Positions 24,710 to 29,753 of a DNA stretch of 29,753 bases are shown here, one piece after another; the stretch's first letter is position 1, and each line of letters starts with the position of its first letter. The stretch is from a virus: IMG/VR virus record IMGVR_UViG_3300010885_048717, positions 1 to 29,753 of that record; one strand, written 5' to 3'. Both the position numbers and the translations under genes were made by a program. The notes below the pieces were generated by a model. That model ran no database searches and was not told the DNA's origin. It was given only the letters and a program-made list of their open reading frames with translations.

Positions 24710-24812
24710 CGTGAGGGGGTGAGGGGAGAAGAGAAAGGAACTCCTTTTCGTAGCCACCGTAGGTAGGCGTAGAGAAAAGGGGAAGGGCGATAGCCCGACC
24801 TTTCTCACATTT

Positions 24813-24840
24813 ACTATATAAGGCGTTAGCCTTATGTAAA
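24813..24840 (-). promoter_or_regulatory. Putative late-operon promoter with internal operator palindrome
   Basis: Reading the - strand, TTTACA (complement of 24835-24840) is separated by 16 bases from TATAGT (complement of 24813-24818), each five of six to the sigma70 consensus. The spacer is almost entirely a perfect palindrome, ATAAGGC-GTTA-GCCTTAT (24818-24835), which would be an ideal operator. Transcription would run left into the 120-aa gene and the whole late unit. Other bacterial lineages use different boxes, so the promoter call is moderate; the palindrome itself is certain. Confidence 0.45.
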
Positions 24841-24875
24841 TGTATGTAAGGATATCTGGTTTTCTATATGCTCGG

Positions 24876-24896
24876 ATATATGTCAATCACATATAT
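24876..24896. repeat. AT-rich inverted repeat
   Basis: ATATATG (24876-24882) and CATATAT (24890-24896) are perfect inverted copies around seven bases. They lie in the most AT-rich part of the window, just upstream of the putative late promoter, and could be a second protein-binding site or part of an unwinding element. Confidence 0.55.
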
Positions 24897-25054
24897 TGGC
24901 CGTATATCAAAACATCAATTTTAACACTTTACCCCCGGAAAAATAGCGAGGTGCGTTTTTCCAACCGCTCCCCGGTTCCGGGGGGTCAAATAGATTTCTT
25001 CCGGGGGGAGGCCGGCCTGGGTAATTCGCGCTTTTTCCTCGTTTTTCGCGGTCG

Positions 25055-25296
25055 CGACCAGGCCGACCGGCCGCGCCAGGATCGCCGACCAGGTTGATCA
25101 GGCTCGACCAGGGACAGCTCGACCAGGGCGCGCGCGGCCAGGATCGAGGCCGACCAGGGCGGCCGGCCGGTGGGGATCTTGACCAGGCGAGCGCCAGGAG
25201 CTCCGACCAGGCACGCGACCGGCCGACCTGGGCGCGCCAGGATCGACCAGGACAGGCCGGCCTGGGTGGGGTAGGGGGTAATCAAGGCCGACCAGG
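25055..25296 (+). repeat. CGACCAGG direct-repeat array (iteron-like)
   Basis: Eight exact CGACCAGG octamers start at about 25055, 25086, 25105, 25120, 25151, 25204, 25244 and 25289, plus a TGACCAGG at about 25180, all on the + strand within 242 bases. Spacing is irregular (15-53 bases between exact copies). The same octamer occurs elsewhere in the GC-rich block but less densely. The array borders an AT-rich stretch, as do iterons at many origins. Confidence 0.6.
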
Positions 25297-25408
25297 GCAA
25301 GCGCTCCAGGAGGCCGGCCAGGTGGGCGGGATCGCGCGCCCAGGATCTGGACGCAAGAAGGCCGGCGCGGATTGCTCCGGCCGGCCTGGTGATCGCCTGG
25401 TGTCCTGG

Positions 25409-26374
25409 TTAGCTCCGGCCGGCGTTGGCCGCGCGGATCTCTTTCGCCTGGCGGCGGTAGTCGGCCGCGATCCTAACCTGGCGATCGTGCTCGGCCTGGG
25501 CGATGCGGAGGATCTCGGCCTGGCCGGCCTTGACGCGCGCCAGGATCTCGGCCGCGGTGCGCTCCGTGCCGGCCGCGTCTCGGTCAAGTTCGTGCGCGAT
25601 CGCCAGGGGGCGCTCCGGGTCGTGCGGGTCTTTGTGGCCGGCGGCGGCCAGCTTGGCGGCGGCCTGGCCAAGCTCGCGCTTGGTCTCGGCCAGGAAGAGG
25701 TCGGCCTCCTCCAGCTCGGCCTGGGCGGCCGGGAGGCGGGAGCAAGGGTCGTTGCAGTTGATGAGCCAGGAGACCAGGCCGGCGGCCTTATCCTGGGCGG
25801 CCTCGCGGTCGGCGATCTCCTCGCGTAGCTCCAGGATCTCGGCCTGGATCTCGGCGATCGCGTCCGCGTCCAGGGCGTCCTGGGCGGCCTCCTGGGGCGC
25901 GATCTCGGCCGGAGCGGCCTGGGTGTCGGCCTGGGGCGCGATCGCGTCCTGGGCGATCTCCTGGGCGGCCAGGGAGAGGGACGCGCGCTCGGCATCGGCC
26001 ACGGAGGCCGCGGCCAGGTCGCGATCAAAGCGCGCGGAGTCATCGGCGAGCTCCAGGCGATCCAGCTCGGCCTCACGGCGCTTGAGCTGGCCGGCGGCCT
26101 GGTTGCAAAGGCGCTCCCAGGTCTCGCGCTCGTTGCGGATCTCCAGGGCGCGGCCGGCCGGGAGGATCGTGGCGCGCTCGGCGCGGTGGGCGGCCGCGAT
26201 CTTGGCGATCGAGGCCTGGCGAGCTTCCAGGGCGCGGCGCGCGATCGCGACCTGGGCGCGCTTGCGCTCCAGCTTGGCGGCGATCTCGCCGGCCGCGATC
26301 TTGGCGGCGTTGAGCGCCAGGTTGCGAGCGGGGAGCTCGGCGGCCAGGGCGGTGAGCTGTTCGGTGAGGTTCAT
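25409..26374 (-). CDS. Long coiled-coil protein, unknown function (321 aa)
   Basis: This 321-aa protein is very rich in Ala, Glu, Arg and Leu with long heptad stretches (ALNAAKIAAGEIAAKLERKR, 22-41 region; IAEIQAEILELREEIADRE near 175-195), so it should be mostly coiled coil. A short break with two Cys residues (INCNDPCSRL) interrupts the helices. No catalytic motif or membrane segment is seen. It is the last gene of the right-hand operon, followed by the repeat array. A structural, scaffold-like or DNA-organising role would fit, but none can be shown. The ATG follows a C/A-rich leader (CCCAAACCTATG) without Shine-Dalgarno. Confidence 0.6.
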   Translation of the reverse strand: MNLTEQLTALAAELPARNLALNAAKIAAGEIAAKLERKRAQVAIARRALEARQASIAKIAAAHRAERATILPAGRALEIRNERETWERLCNQAAGQLKRREAELDRLELADDSARFDRDLAAASVADAERASLSLAAQEIAQDAIAPQADTQAAPAEIAPQEAAQDALDADAIAEIQAEILELREEIADREAAQDKAAGLVSWLINCNDPCSRLPAAQAELEEADLFLAETKRELGQAAAKLAAAGHKDPHDPERPLAIAHELDRDAAGTERTAAEILARVKAGQAEILRIAQAEHDRQVRIAADYRRQAKEIRAANAGRS

Positions 26375-26380
26375 AGGTTT

Positions 26381-26412
26381 GGGCTTGGGTTTGGGTTGTT
26401 GGTGGGAAGGGG
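26381..26412 (+). repeat. G-rich (TTTGGG-like) tract before a start codon
   Basis: Four or more G-runs (26381-26383, 26387-26389, 26393-26395, 26404-26406, then GGGG at 26409) lie on the + strand just upstream of the - strand start at 26374, giving CCCAAA-type mRNA. The DNA could form a G-quadruplex. Confidence 0.45.
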
Positions 26413-26751
26413 TTAGAAGTTATAGATCTCGGCCACGAAGGCGTTCACCTCGGCCTTGCCCAGGGCGCTCGCGGCCAGGGTCTTCATACTCCAGGCCGAG
26501 ACCAGGAAGTCGAGCGAACCGGTGACCTGGTAGGCGTGGGCAAAGCCGGCTTCGCGGATCGCGGAGTCAAAGGCGGCGCGGCGATCGGGCGCGGCGGCGA
26601 TCGCGGCGAGATCGATGCCCAGGGTGACGGCCAGGCCGGAGCCATCGCGCTTGCCGGCAAGCTTGCGGGGGTTGCGGCCTTTGCCGGTGGTGTCGCGGAA
26701 GGCGAGATTGACGGCGATCAGCTGGAGGTTCGTGCGGGTGGTGATGTTCAT
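26413..26751 (-). CDS. Hypothetical protein (112 aa)
   Basis: This 112-aa protein has less biased composition than its neighbours: a beta-like N-terminus (TNLQLIAVNLAFRDTTGKG), a basic loop GRNPRKLAGKRDG, then alpha/beta alternation (LAVTLGIDLAAIA, AFDSAIREAGFAHAYQVTG, FLVSAWSMKTLAA). It may be a small globular domain; I do not recognise it. The ATG at 26751 is chosen over an upstream GTG because the extra 15 residues are Pro/Lys-rich without structure. The 158 bases upstream (26752-26909) are mostly non-coding, with CCGGGGGGTC at 26809 and two GACCAGG units near 26845-26860. Confidence 0.55.
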   Translation of the reverse strand: MNITTRTNLQLIAVNLAFRDTTGKGRNPRKLAGKRDGSGLAVTLGIDLAAIAAAPDRRAAFDSAIREAGFAHAYQVTGSLDFLVSAWSMKTLAASALGKAEVNAFVAEIYNF

Positions 26752-26909
26752 TTTAGTGCGGTGTTTGTTGGGTGGAGTCGTTGGTGACGAGATCACACAA
26801 TCAGAAAACCGGGGGGTCGTAAAGGTCTTTTTTCAACTTTCTTTGACCAGGCGCAAGCGACCAGGGCGCGGCCTGGGTAGGCCGGCCTGGATCGCCTGGG
26901 CGGCCTGGG

Positions 26910-27242
26910 TTAGCCGGCCGGCCTGGGGCGCTCGGCCTCGGCCAGGAGCTCGGCCGCGATCTCCAGGATCTCCTCGACCTGGAGCGGGTGGAACCAGGGC
27001 GGCCTGGGGCGCGCCAGGGCGGCCAGGGATCGGCCTAGGCGGCCGGCCGCGGCCTGGGCGATCTCCAGGCGATCCAGGGGCGAGCGCTTGCCAGGCCGGC
27101 GCGGAGGGCGGCACGCGATGCCAAGCGCGGAGGCCTGGGCGATCGCGCGATCATCGCCTGGCCAGCGGCGGGAAAGCCATATGTAGCCGGCGCGGTTCGA
27201 CAGCTTGGCCAGCTCGGCCAGGCGCTCCTGGGGCGAGCTCAT
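26910..27242 (-). CDS. Hypothetical helical protein (110 aa)
   Basis: This 110-aa basic protein is helical, with a central RWPGDDRAIAQASALGIACRPP resembling a short helix-turn-helix region, then an Arg/Pro-rich linker and an Ala/Leu/Glu helix at the end. The start at 27242 is fixed by AAGGAGG about seven bases upstream and by an ATGA overlap with the previous gene; a longer frame would reach into that gene. DNA binding is possible but unproved. Function unknown. Confidence 0.55.
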   Translation of the reverse strand: MSSPQERLAELAKLSNRAGYIWLSRRWPGDDRAIAQASALGIACRPPRRPGKRSPLDRLEIAQAAAGRLGRSLAALARPRPPWFHPLQVEEILEIAAELLAEAERPRPAG

Positions 27243-27580
27243 CGGCCGGCCTCCTTGAGCTCCTGGGCGTTCGCGGAGCACTCGGCCGCGATCTTCGCCC
27301 AATAGCCGGCCAGCTCGGCCAGGCGCGGCCGGTGCTTGTGTCCGGCGACCAGGTCGGCCTGAAGATCGGCGAGCGCTCCGGCCAGGTTGTCCAGGCGCGC
27401 GGCCAGGTTGTGCGCCAGGTTGTGCTGGCGCTGGCGGTCGGCCTCCAGGCGCTTGTCGAGATCCTGGGCGAAAGCTTCGAGATCCTGGGAGACCTGCCAG
27501 GCCAGCCCTTGGCCGGGAAGCTGGGCGAGCGCGCGGAGGGAGATCACCAGGGCGCGCGCTTGATCGGCGACCGGCCTCAT
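27239..27580 (-). CDS. Hypothetical helical protein (113 aa)
   Basis: This 113-aa protein is almost entirely helical (ADQARALVISLRALAQL, then LDKRLEADRQRQHNLAHNLAARL, then LADLQADLVAG). It resembles a short coiled-coil or helical-bundle protein, without catalytic signature. The start at 27580 is supported by AGGAGG upstream and by the ATGA overlap with the preceding gene; the much longer open frame through 28357 is Pro/Arg-rich and shadow-like. Its stop overlaps the next start, again as ATGA. Confidence 0.6.
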   Translation of the reverse strand: MRPVADQARALVISLRALAQLPGQGLAWQVSQDLEAFAQDLDKRLEADRQRQHNLAHNLAARLDNLAGALADLQADLVAGHKHRPRLAELAGYWAKIAAECSANAQELKEAGR

Positions 27581-28059
27581 CGGGCGGCCTCCTTTCCGGC
27601 CGGCGGCGGCGGGAAACCGACCAGGCGGCGCGATCGCGCGGCCTCCTTTGAGACCAGGCCGGCCAGGGCGGCGGCCTCCGTTGCCAGGAGATCGGACAGG
27701 CAAGCCGGGTCGGACAGCTCCAGGGCGTGATCGGCCAGGCGATCGGCCGCGGCCTCGACCGGAGACCAGGCGGCCAGGAGGGCGCGCAGGTCGTGCTCTG
27801 CGGCCTGGCGGCCGGCGGCGAGCTCCATAGCCAGGCGTAGGAGGCCGAGCGCCAGGTCGGCCTGGCGGCCGGTGGCGGCCGGCGCGGTCTCGGCGATCGC
27901 CTGGGCGGCCGCGACCAGGTCGCGCTCCAGGTGCTCCAGCGGCCGGATCGTTGGCGGGTGCTTTGCCAGGTAGGCCGGCGCGCGCGCCAGGATCTTGTCG
28001 GAGATCGGCGCGGCCTTGGTGGCGCGCCGGGTGGGTTTGGGTTTGGGTTTGGTGCTCAT
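27577..28059 (-). CDS. Hypothetical helical protein with KPKPKP start (160 aa)
   Basis: This 160-aa protein opens with a basic, flexible tail (STKPKPKPTRRATK) coded by a CCCAAA-type repeat, then Ala/Leu/Glu-rich helices (LEHLERDLVAAAQAIAETA, then LLRLAMELAAGRQAAEHDLRALL) with two short acidic turns. The N-terminal Lys/Pro/Arg tail could contact nucleic acid. No family is recognised. Both ends overlap neighbouring genes as ATGA. There is no Shine-Dalgarno; the leader is CCTTCCCGATG. Confidence 0.6.
   Translation of the reverse strand: MSTKPKPKPTRRATKAAPISDKILARAPAYLAKHPPTIRPLEHLERDLVAAAQAIAETAPAATGRQADLALGLLRLAMELAAGRQAAEHDLRALLAAWSPVEAAADRLADHALELSDPACLSDLLATEAAALAGLVSKEAARSRRLVGFPPPPAGKEAAR
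28029..28052 (+). repeat. G-rich (TTTGGG)n tract at a start codon
   Basis: GGG runs at 28029-28031, 28033-28035, 28039-28041 and 28045-28047, then GG at 28051, resemble a telomere-type repeat on the + strand. They code on the - strand for the KPKPKP start of the 160-aa protein and could form a G-quadruplex in DNA. Confidence 0.5.
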
Positions 28060-28562
28060 CGGGAAGGGGGCGCTTGGATCGAGGCGGCCAGGTGACGCGC
28101 GGCCAGGATCGCCTGGTCGAGGCGCTCGGCCTGGAGATCGCCGGCGCAGTCCTGGAGCTCATCCAGGCGCGCGGCCAGCGCGTTGGCGCGCTCGGTCGCG
28201 GCGCGGAGCTGTTCGGCCTGGAGCTCGGCCAGGTCGAGGCCGCCAGGCGCGGAGATCTCGGCCGGCGCTTGTACCGTCCAGGAGTAAAGGCCGGGCTTGT
28301 CGAGCGCGCCGGCCAGCTCAATCCGGCCGGCGGCCATAAACCAGGCATAGGCGGCAAGCTTGGCCGCGCGTGCGTGATTGCCGGCGCTGTCCAGGTCGTG
28401 CCGCCAGGTGTAGATCGCCGGCTTCGCGGCGTGCTCGGTCGAGGCGCGCACGCGCGCGCCCAGGCGATCGCCGGCGGGGACGAACTTGGTGGTGATCACT
28501 CCTCGGCCGAGCTTGGCGGCCGGAAGCTCGCGATCGGTGGAGGGGTAGGGGTCGGAGCTCAT
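28056..28562 (-). CDS. Hypothetical alpha/beta protein (168 aa)
   Basis: This 168-aa protein is less helical than its neighbours at first: a beta-like part (GVITTKFVPAGDRLGARVRA, YTWRHDLDSAGNHARAAKL, AGALDKPGLYSWTVQAPAE), then two Ala/Leu/Arg/Glu helices (LDLAELQAEQLRAATERANALAARL, then LQAERLDQAILAARHLAAS). It may be a small globular domain with a coiled tail. Family unknown. The start shares an exact 18-base sequence with the start of the 67-aa gene at 29147, and ATGA overlaps lie on both sides. Confidence 0.6.
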   Translation of the reverse strand: MSSDPYPSTDRELPAAKLGRGVITTKFVPAGDRLGARVRASTEHAAKPAIYTWRHDLDSAGNHARAAKLAAYAWFMAAGRIELAGALDKPGLYSWTVQAPAEISAPGGLDLAELQAEQLRAATERANALAARLDELQDCAGDLQAERLDQAILAARHLAASIQAPPSR

Positions 28563-28566
28563 AGGG
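28549..28566 (-). repeat. 18-base start-site repeat, copy 1
   Basis: GGGTCGGAGCTCATAGGG on the + strand spans the start codon of the 168-aa gene. The identical 18 bases occur at 29134-29151 around the start of the 67-aa gene. On the - strand the repeat reads leader CCCT, then ATGAGCTCCGACCC, which codes MSSDP. Confidence 0.85.
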
Positions 28567-28930
28567 TGGGCGGGGTGGTTTGGGAGTAGTGGGCGGCGCG
28601 GTAAAGCGCTTGGTAGTCCGGCGCGGCCTGGCGCGTCTCGGCGTGCCAGCGCCGGGCAAGGCCGGCCGGAGATCGGTCGGCCTGGAGCGCGACCGGGGCG
28701 AGCTGGCCAGGATCGGCCAGGGTGACGGCCAGGCCGGAGTCGGCCAAGGCCTGGAGCTGGCCGCGATCCAGGGAGCGGCGGCCGGCGATCCTGGTGATCG
28801 CCAGGGCGGCCGGGGTGGCCGGGTAGTAGATCCTGCGGCCGTAGAGATCGCGGCCGAGGAAGTGGAGCACCGGCGCGGCGGCCTGGCTGGCCTCCTGGGC
28901 GGCGTTTGGGGTTTGGGTAGGGTCGTGCAT
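28559..28930 (-). CDS. Hypothetical protein (123 aa)
   Basis: This 123-aa protein has a Pro/Thr/Gln/Ala-rich N-terminus (HDPTQTPNAAQEA), a short aromatic segment (LHFLGRDLYGRRIYYPATPAAL), then helical and beta parts and a disordered tail. LHFLGRDLYGRRIYYP looks like a paired-strand motif, but I cannot name it. The ATG at 28930 is preferred over an upstream TTG at 28963, which would overlap the previous gene by 20 bases. The leader CCCCTTCCCCTATG has no Shine-Dalgarno. Its stop overlaps the next start as ATGA. Confidence 0.55.
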   Translation of the reverse strand: MHDPTQTPNAAQEASQAAAPVLHFLGRDLYGRRIYYPATPAALAITRIAGRRSLDRGQLQALADSGLAVTLADPGQLAPVALQADRSPAGLARRWHAETRQAAPDYQALYRAAHYSQTTPPTL

Positions 28931-28943
28931 AGGGGAAGGGGTG

Positions 28944-29147
28944 TCAAAGGCCTTGACGGTCAAGCTGGCCTGGTTTGCTGGCGGCCTCCTGGGCGCGCCG
29001 GTTCGCGGATCGGATCGCCTTGGCGGCGCGTACCAGGGCGCGCGCTTGAGCGAGCGCCAGGGCGGCCTGGTCGAGATCGCCGGCCAGGAGATCCTGGGCG
29101 GCGGCCTGGATTAGATCCTGGGCGGCCTGGATCGGGTCGGAGCTCAT
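28944..29147 (-). CDS. Small Ala-rich helical protein (67 aa)
   Basis: This 67-aa protein is essentially one or two amphipathic Ala/Gln/Leu helices (DPIQAAQDLIQAAAQDLLAG, then LDQAALALAQARALVRAAKA) with a basic tail, in part reading like a repeated 11-residue unit. The start at 29147 is set by an ATGA overlap with the upstream gene; a longer frame to 29351 lies inside that gene and is Pro/Arg-rich. The start region duplicates that of the 168-aa gene, and no Shine-Dalgarno is seen. Function unknown. Confidence 0.55.
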   Translation of the reverse strand: MSSDPIQAAQDLIQAAAQDLLAGDLDQAALALAQARALVRAAKAIRSANRRAQEAASKPGQLDRQGL

Positions 29148-29151
29148 AGGG
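29134..29151 (-). repeat. 18-base start-site repeat, copy 2
   Basis: This is an exact second copy of the 18 bases at 28549-28566, again centred on a start codon. Two identical start-site modules 585 bases apart suggest gene duplication followed by divergence, or selection on the start region. Confidence 0.85.
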
Positions 29152-29638
29152 AAGTCAGCACGCGATCCAGGCGCGTCCAAACCGGAGCCCAGGTCGTTGA
29201 CTCCGGGAAGAGATCCAGGAGCTCGGCCGCGGCCAGGGCGCGCCGGCCAGGATCGGCCAGGCGGTCGCGGCGCTGGAACAGGTGGAGATCCAGGGCGGCC
29301 TCCGACATTGCCAGGTGCGCGGCGCGGATCGCGTCCTGGCCGGTTTGCCAATCTTCTACGCGGTGCGCTTCCTGGAGGCGGCCGGCGGCGAGCTGGAGCG
29401 CCAGGCGCAAGCCGTCCAGGTGCTCGCGATCGATCTCGGCCTGGATCTCGCCGGCCAGGCGGTCGGCCAGGTCGGCCTGGCGAAAGAGCGCCGCGGACTC
29501 GGCGGCCAGGTCGCGGTCGCAGGATCGCGGCCGCGGCGTGCTGTCCTGGCGGTGGCGCTCATTGCCCAGGAGGCGATCCAGGGCGGCCTCTCGGCGAAGC
29601 TCGGCGATCCTGGCCAGGCGCGGGTCGGCGGCGCTCAT
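29144..29638 (-). CDS. Hypothetical helical protein (164 aa)
   Basis: This 164-aa protein is mostly helical, rich in Ala, Leu, Arg and Asp (LARIAELRREAALDRLLGNE, then LAAESAALFRQADLADRLAGEI, then LRLALQLAAGRLQEAHRVED). It ends in a more mixed part with Trp residues (LFPESTTWAPVWTRLDRVL). It has no recognised motif; a helical bundle is likely. The start overlaps the previous stop as ATGA, its stop overlaps the next start the same way, and a GGAGG-like run (29643-29648 complement) is weak. Function unknown. Confidence 0.6.
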   Translation of the reverse strand: MSAADPRLARIAELRREAALDRLLGNERHRQDSTPRPRSCDRDLAAESAALFRQADLADRLAGEIQAEIDREHLDGLRLALQLAAGRLQEAHRVEDWQTGQDAIRAAHLAMSEAALDLHLFQRRDRLADPGRRALAAAELLDLFPESTTWAPVWTRLDRVLTSL

Positions 29639-29753
29639 TTGCGGAGGCCTCCCTTGCGGCGCGCCGCGATCTCGCGGCCGGTGTCGGCCAGCTGGCGATT
29701 GAGGCGCTCGGCGCGCTCGCGCTTGATGCGCTCGGTGAGCTCGTAGGCCTGGA
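29635..29753 (-). CDS. Hypothetical protein, C-terminal fragment (cut by window edge)
   Basis: The - strand frame ending with TGA at 29635-29637 is open to the window edge. The visible 38 residues are a helix of Arg, Glu and Leu (YELTERIKRERAERLNRQL) and a basic tail RRKGGLRK. The stop overlaps the next start as ATGA. This is the end of a further gene of the right-hand operon, too short to identify; a basic helical end could bind nucleic acid. Confidence 0.55.
   Translation of the reverse strand, partial: QAYELTERIKRERAERLNRQLADTGREIAARRKGGLRK

Follow-up and report, generated by a model that had tools for sequence, protein, structure and literature searches.

The window, here the whole stretch of 29,753 bases that was analyzed, is an IMG/VR virus record of a phage from water and constitutes an incomplete phage genome, from which probably several kb are missing. 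Its core (positions 1–24800) encodes primase, tail, portal, and terminase proteins, with profile matches that include a lambda-like portal, a GpA-type terminase, and a primase/helicase. Beyond the core lie an AT-rich promoter-like stretch and a conserved region (24800–25009), and then a terminal block of 4.7 kb at one genome end that is 72% GC and rich in Ala, Gln, Leu, and Ile. This block is crowded with a few short palindromic words, chiefly CCWGG and GATC, at levels that codon choice alone does not explain, in a genome from which about 20 other words have nearly disappeared.

Most of the block is taken up by a minus-strand operon (25409–29751) of about 10 small genes, several with 4-base overlaps, whose proteins are rich in Ala, Leu, Arg, Glu, and Gln. 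Nearest the core is a gene for an Ala-rich protein of 321 amino acids (25409–26374) without a Pfam or PHROG match. It is followed by genes for proteins of 112 (26413–26751), 110 (26910–27242), 113 (27239–27580, with 4-base overlaps with its neighbors), 160 (27577–28059), 168 (28056–28562), 123 (28559–28930), 67 (28944–29147), and 164 (29144–29638) amino acids, and by the end of a further open frame (29635–29751), 38 amino acids of which are visible before it is truncated by the window end. These are orphan genes: none had a Pfam match above the cut-off, a distant search with the block among known phages gave no match, and three of the genes, among them that for the 112-residue protein, were searched in viral contigs and had no relatives there. 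For one block product alone, the 110-residue protein, a relative was detected, in the corresponding block of the related contig L012 (64% over 44 amino acids). A 17-mer made of block words matched only viral contigs without word saturation.

The non-coding DNA of the block includes an intergenic gap (26752–26909) with 6 CCWGG and 4 GGCC sites, and a stretch from the operon end to the conserved region (25010–25408) with 22 CCWGG, 8 GATC, 17 GGCC, and 9 GACCAGG words, the last all on the plus strand. The longer stretch folds more stably than its dinucleotide shuffles (z = −4.5) because of its many inverted words; it was rejected as a decayed gene, the word positions having no clear codon phase. 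Nine contigs of relatives (L003, L005, L007, L008, L009, L013, L017, L022, and L023) share, to within a few bases, a homologous start point that lies upstream of the first late gene and adjoins a conserved element AAGGAATCTCTTAGGGG ... GTCGAAGAC ... CCCCGGAAAAAAGGCGGGGGTATTGTG, which suggests that the 24800–25009 region is probably a cos end.

The excess of the two leading words was measured against synonymous codons shuffled within genes and, for non-coding DNA, against dinucleotide shuffles. Block genes contain 141 CCWGG sites compared with 78 expected (z = 14) and 81 GATC sites compared with 50 (z = 9); GGCC (149 vs 120), GCGC (114 vs 76), and AGCT (39 vs 31) are also raised, TCGA is not enriched in the block, and palindromic 4-mers as a class stand above other 4-mers there (p = 0.006). 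A preliminary description of this DNA had counted 23 CCWGG and 13 GATC sites within 25441–26040, numbers that proved exact. It had also listed GGCC, GCGC, and AGCT as abundant, which holds in that interval for GGCC (27) and GCGC (12; CGCG, with 20, is likewise high) but not for AGCT, found only 4 times there and yet 43 times across the whole block. In the block GCGC, like CGCG and CCGG, reflects mostly composition and the purging of other words.

The excess does not stop at gene borders. CCWGG in the 25010–25408 stretch is at about 10 times the shuffled level (22 vs 2.0) and GATC is also raised (8 vs 2.1), and the 26752–26909 gap holds its 6 CCWGG sites where 0.5 would be expected. Survival of the CCWGG and GATC excess under codon shuffling, together with its extension into non-coding DNA, bears out the earlier contention that codon choice alone is insufficient. 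Viewed from within the words, CAG lies inside CCAGG in 148 of 193 cases (77%) in block coding DNA and 22 of 26 (85%) in non-coding DNA, compared with 174 of 829 (21%) in the core; ATC lies inside GATC in 168 of 190 (88%), 16 of 18 (89%), and 296 of 1001 (30%) cases, respectively. The proportion of distinct 8-mers is 0.60 in the block, compared with 0.92–0.94 for the core and 0.86 for a 71% GC viral contig that is not related to the phage.

Codon context points to the level at which the preference operates. Alanine before an ATC codon is encoded by GCG, which creates GATC, in 13 of 13 cases in the block, compared with 64 of 294 before other codons; the core figure is 0 of 28. Among the Leu codons, CTG is strongly favored ahead of a G (odds ratio 20). 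The GCG-before-ATC rule and the roughly tenfold excess of CCWGG in non-coding DNA together establish that the preference acts on DNA and not on protein. The effect is amplified by the 72% GC content of the block and its richness in Ala, Gln, Leu, and Ile.

Trained on the block itself, a third-order Markov model predicts 161 CCWGG sites against 170 observed, an agreement that the preliminary description had named as refuting the excess; however, such a null already holds CCAG and CAGG, the very feature that needs explaining. The weaker CCWGG excess that had been noted in the rest of the genome was confirmed, with 154 sites in core genes against 74 expected, whereas GATC is neutral there (132 vs 128). 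The word excess in the block is confirmed as real, strong, and unusual; the interpretation given in the preliminary description finds partial support.

A terminase search yielded 47 IMG/VR relatives, giving a family of about 48 contigs; a near DNA search with the core against known phages found no match. Bacterial genomes with terminase relatives were from the Verrucomicrobiota, the first an Akkermansiaceae metagenome-assembled genome and later 54 of 286 genomes of that class. These terminase relatives, the sole pointer, suggest that the host is probably a member of that phylum. Similar word use across the host genome had been named in the preliminary description as a finding that would count against it; DNA of the probable host class does not show such usage, as ten 20-kb samples contained 2.2–8.1 CCWGG and 1.9–8.9 GATC sites per kb, compared with 36 and 19 in the block. 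Host word usage as the source of the excess is ruled out for these ten samples of host-class genomes.

The second feature of the genome is what it lacks. Some 20 words, a good number of which are known Type II sites, are nearly gone from all of it, the block included: members of this purged set occur 8 times in the core where codon shuffles give about 708, and 4 times in the block where they give 168. Observed and expected core counts are 0 and 103 for CATG, 1 and 68 for ACGT, 1 and 77 for CTAG, and 0 and 13 for CACGAG. Degenerate restriction sites are emptied as whole units (GGWCC 0/61, GCWGC 0/60, CTNAG 0/96, CASTG 0/45, GAWTC 0/62, CYCGRG 0/37, and GRCGYC 1/31, core observed/expected), which from the sequence reads as a mark of Type II restriction avoidance. 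Block and core alike are also purged of odd words (GGCGGA, GCCCGC, GCAGGC, CCCGT, and CGTCG). The preliminary description had remarked that phages usually avoid restriction targets of the kind abundant here; CCWGG and GATC are indeed over-used, but the phage is not indifferent to restriction. Relatives purge other sets: G004 and L015 are without GATC, GCGC, AGCT, CCGG, CGCG, and CATG, and L031 is without CCGG, CGCG, CATG, ACGT, CTAG, and GTAC. The family lacks on average 6 of the 4- and 5-mers per 10 kb, compared with 1.4 in a small control set of nine other viral and host contigs.

Rusinov et al. (2018, PMC6286503) reported complete or near-complete elimination of Type II sites for roughly a tenth of the genomes of viruses. 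The present phage shares this elimination but differs in the number of words affected (about 20 per genome), in the variation of the sets among close relatives, and in the over-use of the palindromes that remain. As a separate observation, CACTG/CAGTG is gone from nearly all members of the family (the window and L002–L048), and purged sets differ between phages whose terminases are about 80% identical.

Other lineages of the family show how far the bias extends. CCWGG is doubled in G001, a sister phage whose terminase reaches 96% identity in its best segment, with 214 sites against 107 in codon shuffles, and the early genes alone hold 55 against 26; in G006 it is at half the expected number. 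Two lineages carry, at the corresponding locus, GC-rich blocks of mostly unrelated genes in which both leading words are raised over their own cores: the ratio of CCAGG to CAG is 0.34 vs 0.08 in G002 and 0.33 vs 0.12 in L012, and that of GATC to ATC is 0.57 vs 0.19 and 0.53 vs 0.25, respectively. GCGC and CGCG are also raised in the L012 block. Across these lineages the word tendency is recurrent at the block locus but not universal. CCAGG is the most conserved of 452 5-mers when the window is compared with G001, but this was discarded as proof of selection, being nonspecific: G005 and G007 give the same result without the excess. Among side observations, the early genes of G001 (L049:1–5560), which are not in the window record, encode a helicase, a PD-(D/E)XK nuclease, and a transglycosylase-like protein. 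L004 (5,795 bases; terminase 83% identical) has no CCWGG where about 16 would be expected and twice the expected GATC.

The reading that we favor, tentatively and with somewhat less than even confidence, is that a restriction-evading lineage over-uses palindromes that are presumably unrestricted, and probably methylated by the host, where protein constraint is weak. Such a lineage would have eliminated some 20 restriction-type words throughout its genome. Palindromes presumably unrestricted in the present hosts, chiefly CCWGG and GATC, would have been used freely and then over-used; as potential targets of solitary methyltransferases (Dcm-like and Dam-like) that the host or phages would encode, they would be safe. 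A methylation-linked biased process, as proposed for the palindromes discussed below, or selection for methylated safe words, could then multiply them wherever protein constraint is weak, which would account for the order of non-coding DNA at or above small orphan genes, and both far above the core. The counts themselves demonstrate the purge, the genome-wide doubling of CCWGG, the preference of the block for GATC and GGCC (weakly AGCT) at synonymous and non-coding positions, the gradient in CCAGG and GATC use, and the rise of CCWGG and GATC in the corresponding block of two other lineages; we infer the methylation step by analogy with cyanobacteria.

In cyanobacteria, over-use of the HIP (highly iterated palindrome) words, namely HIP1 (GCGATCGC) and the exceptional HIPs, for example GGCGCC and GCSGC, tracks cognate methyltransferases (PMC4390886). 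The phage resembles these systems in the gross over-use of short palindromes in coding and non-coding DNA, in the methyltransferase-target type of its words, and in lineage-specific word choice. As in HIP systems, palindromes stand far above both composition and codon expectation within and between genes; in this incomplete genome, over-use is genome-wide for CCWGG but not for GATC. The coding block contains 9 copies of HIP1 itself, and the core none. Unlike the HIP systems, the bias is in a phage, several words of 4–5 bases are involved together and most strongly in a single accessory block, the scanned window proteins yielded no cognate methyltransferase, and the host is not known as cyanobacterial. 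The bias is best placed as a variant of palindrome over-representation within extreme restriction-site avoidance. A bolder formulation, which we consider doubtful, would make it a phage counterpart of the cyanobacterial HIP, the cos-side end being rewritten, inside genes as well as outside them, into palindromic targets of solitary methyltransferases while restricted words are erased genome-wide, which would turn the DNA into a dictionary of words safe in its host.

Several results weigh against the favored reading. No DNA methyltransferase family was detected in the scanned window proteins or in the extra 5.5 kb of G001. GATC is neutral in the core, and a genome-wide drive toward GATC needs a reason for acting in the block only. 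The blocks of L020 and G015 show little rise in CCWGG or GATC, and in the G002 block CCWGG but not GATC exceeds codon shuffles, on rough gene calls. Finally, when a model is fitted to all depleted words, the block expectations rise to 128–130 for CCWGG and 67–68 for GATC, near the observed counts, although such a fit is close to circular.

This last result lends weight to an alternative without any positive preference, in which the many forbidden words squeeze GC-rich coding DNA into those that are allowed. With only the purged words forbidden in the shuffles, the CCWGG expectation climbs from 74 to 100 for the core (against 154 found) and from 78 to 89 for the block (against 141); block GATC moves from 50 to 52 (against 81), and the GCGC and CGCG counts of the block are almost accounted for. 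The same constraint leaves the non-coding expectation for CCWGG at 1.9 vs 22 seen, so purging accounts for part of the coding excess and none of the non-coding excess. In addition, some words that are frequent in the core and hence not restricted, CCAGA for instance (102 copies), are absent from the block (0), and GATC at Ala-Ile pairs is favored in the block but disfavored in the core. As a sole cause, a by-product of restriction avoidance is insufficient, and we regard a pure by-product as unlikely.

Inheritance of usage from elsewhere, with the block assembled from genes of other phages or of plasmids that abound in CCWGG and GATC throughout their genomes, is in our view similarly unlikely. 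It would fit the difference in word usage between block and core of one genome, the orphan status of the genes, and the enrichment of both words in the blocks of other lineages with mostly unrelated genes. However, the block is purged of the core's words, odd ones included, and has hence been long under the same restriction; no donor was found among the phages or viral contigs searched, and the excess extends into non-coding DNA.

Spreading of short repeats had been raised in the preliminary description as a possible cause. Slippage or local duplication could yield low-complexity, word-rich genes and gaps, and the 9 GACCAGG words in a single orientation within 399 non-coding bases, the low fraction of distinct 8-mers, short imperfect tandem repeats, and the repeats, CCTGGATCGGCGGC among them, that L012 has at this position are in line with it. 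The copies have little in common beyond the word itself, however, there is no large array (Tandem Repeats Finder finds none in 25010–25408), and CCWGG spacing is irregular. Synonymous context effects and codon phase would need added selection, and a favoring of palindromes in particular is not predicted. The proposal is thus weakly supported, and we think it quite unlikely as the cause. In L012 the non-coding positional counterpart of 25010–25408 (L012:4700–4820) consists of repeated CCTGGATCGGCGGC and GAGCGCGGCGGC words.

A role in binding or protection appears improbable. An oriented CCTGGTC-like word beside the entering DNA end might halt a host exonuclease in the manner of Chi, or the palindromes might bind a phage protein; the block adjoins the probable cos end, and GACCAGG orientation is biased 9:0 in non-coding DNA, 9:2 in the coding block, and 9:7 in the core. 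These numbers are small, GATC and GGCC are left unexplained, and the array is not conserved in L020, G002, or G015. Very-short-patch (Vsr) repair of CTWGG to CCWGG, suggested by high CCWGG and nearly absent CTAG, is very hard to credit and was rejected, since its substrate CTTGG/CCAAG is over-used and not depleted (114 vs 76, core genes), CTAG is missing whatever the context, and GATC is not addressed.

Two opposite word-level forces are coupled in one small genome, near-total erasure and gross over-use in one accessory block, and the erased set turns over between close relatives. The family of about 48 contigs forms a natural series in which CCWGG is erased (L004), neutral (G002 core), or multiplied in a third lineage, and could show whether the over-representation of palindromes, without an explanation since HIP1, tracks methylation. 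The sets of purged words might further serve to link uncultured phages with hosts whose restriction enzymes are known.

Relatives of the phage do encode candidate modification enzymes. Six of them (G002, G003, G005, G006, G007, and G008) have a C5-methyltransferase (PF00145) at one shared place, at which nothing matched in the window, G001, or G004. Multispecific C5-methyltransferases are known from Bacillus phages of the SPR/phi3T type. The relatives' enzymes resemble these in having conserved ends and a recognition region that varies in sequence and length; a difference is that the window and G001 are without an enzyme at that place. The genes, for example at L050:1684–3672, L052:10584–12149, L054:9359–10516, and L055:7192–8280 (minus strand), lie between metallophosphoesterase and primase genes and encode proteins of 362–662 amino acids. 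Their conserved ends are about 70–78% identical in closer pairs, and the variation between them looks like swapping of target-recognition domains.

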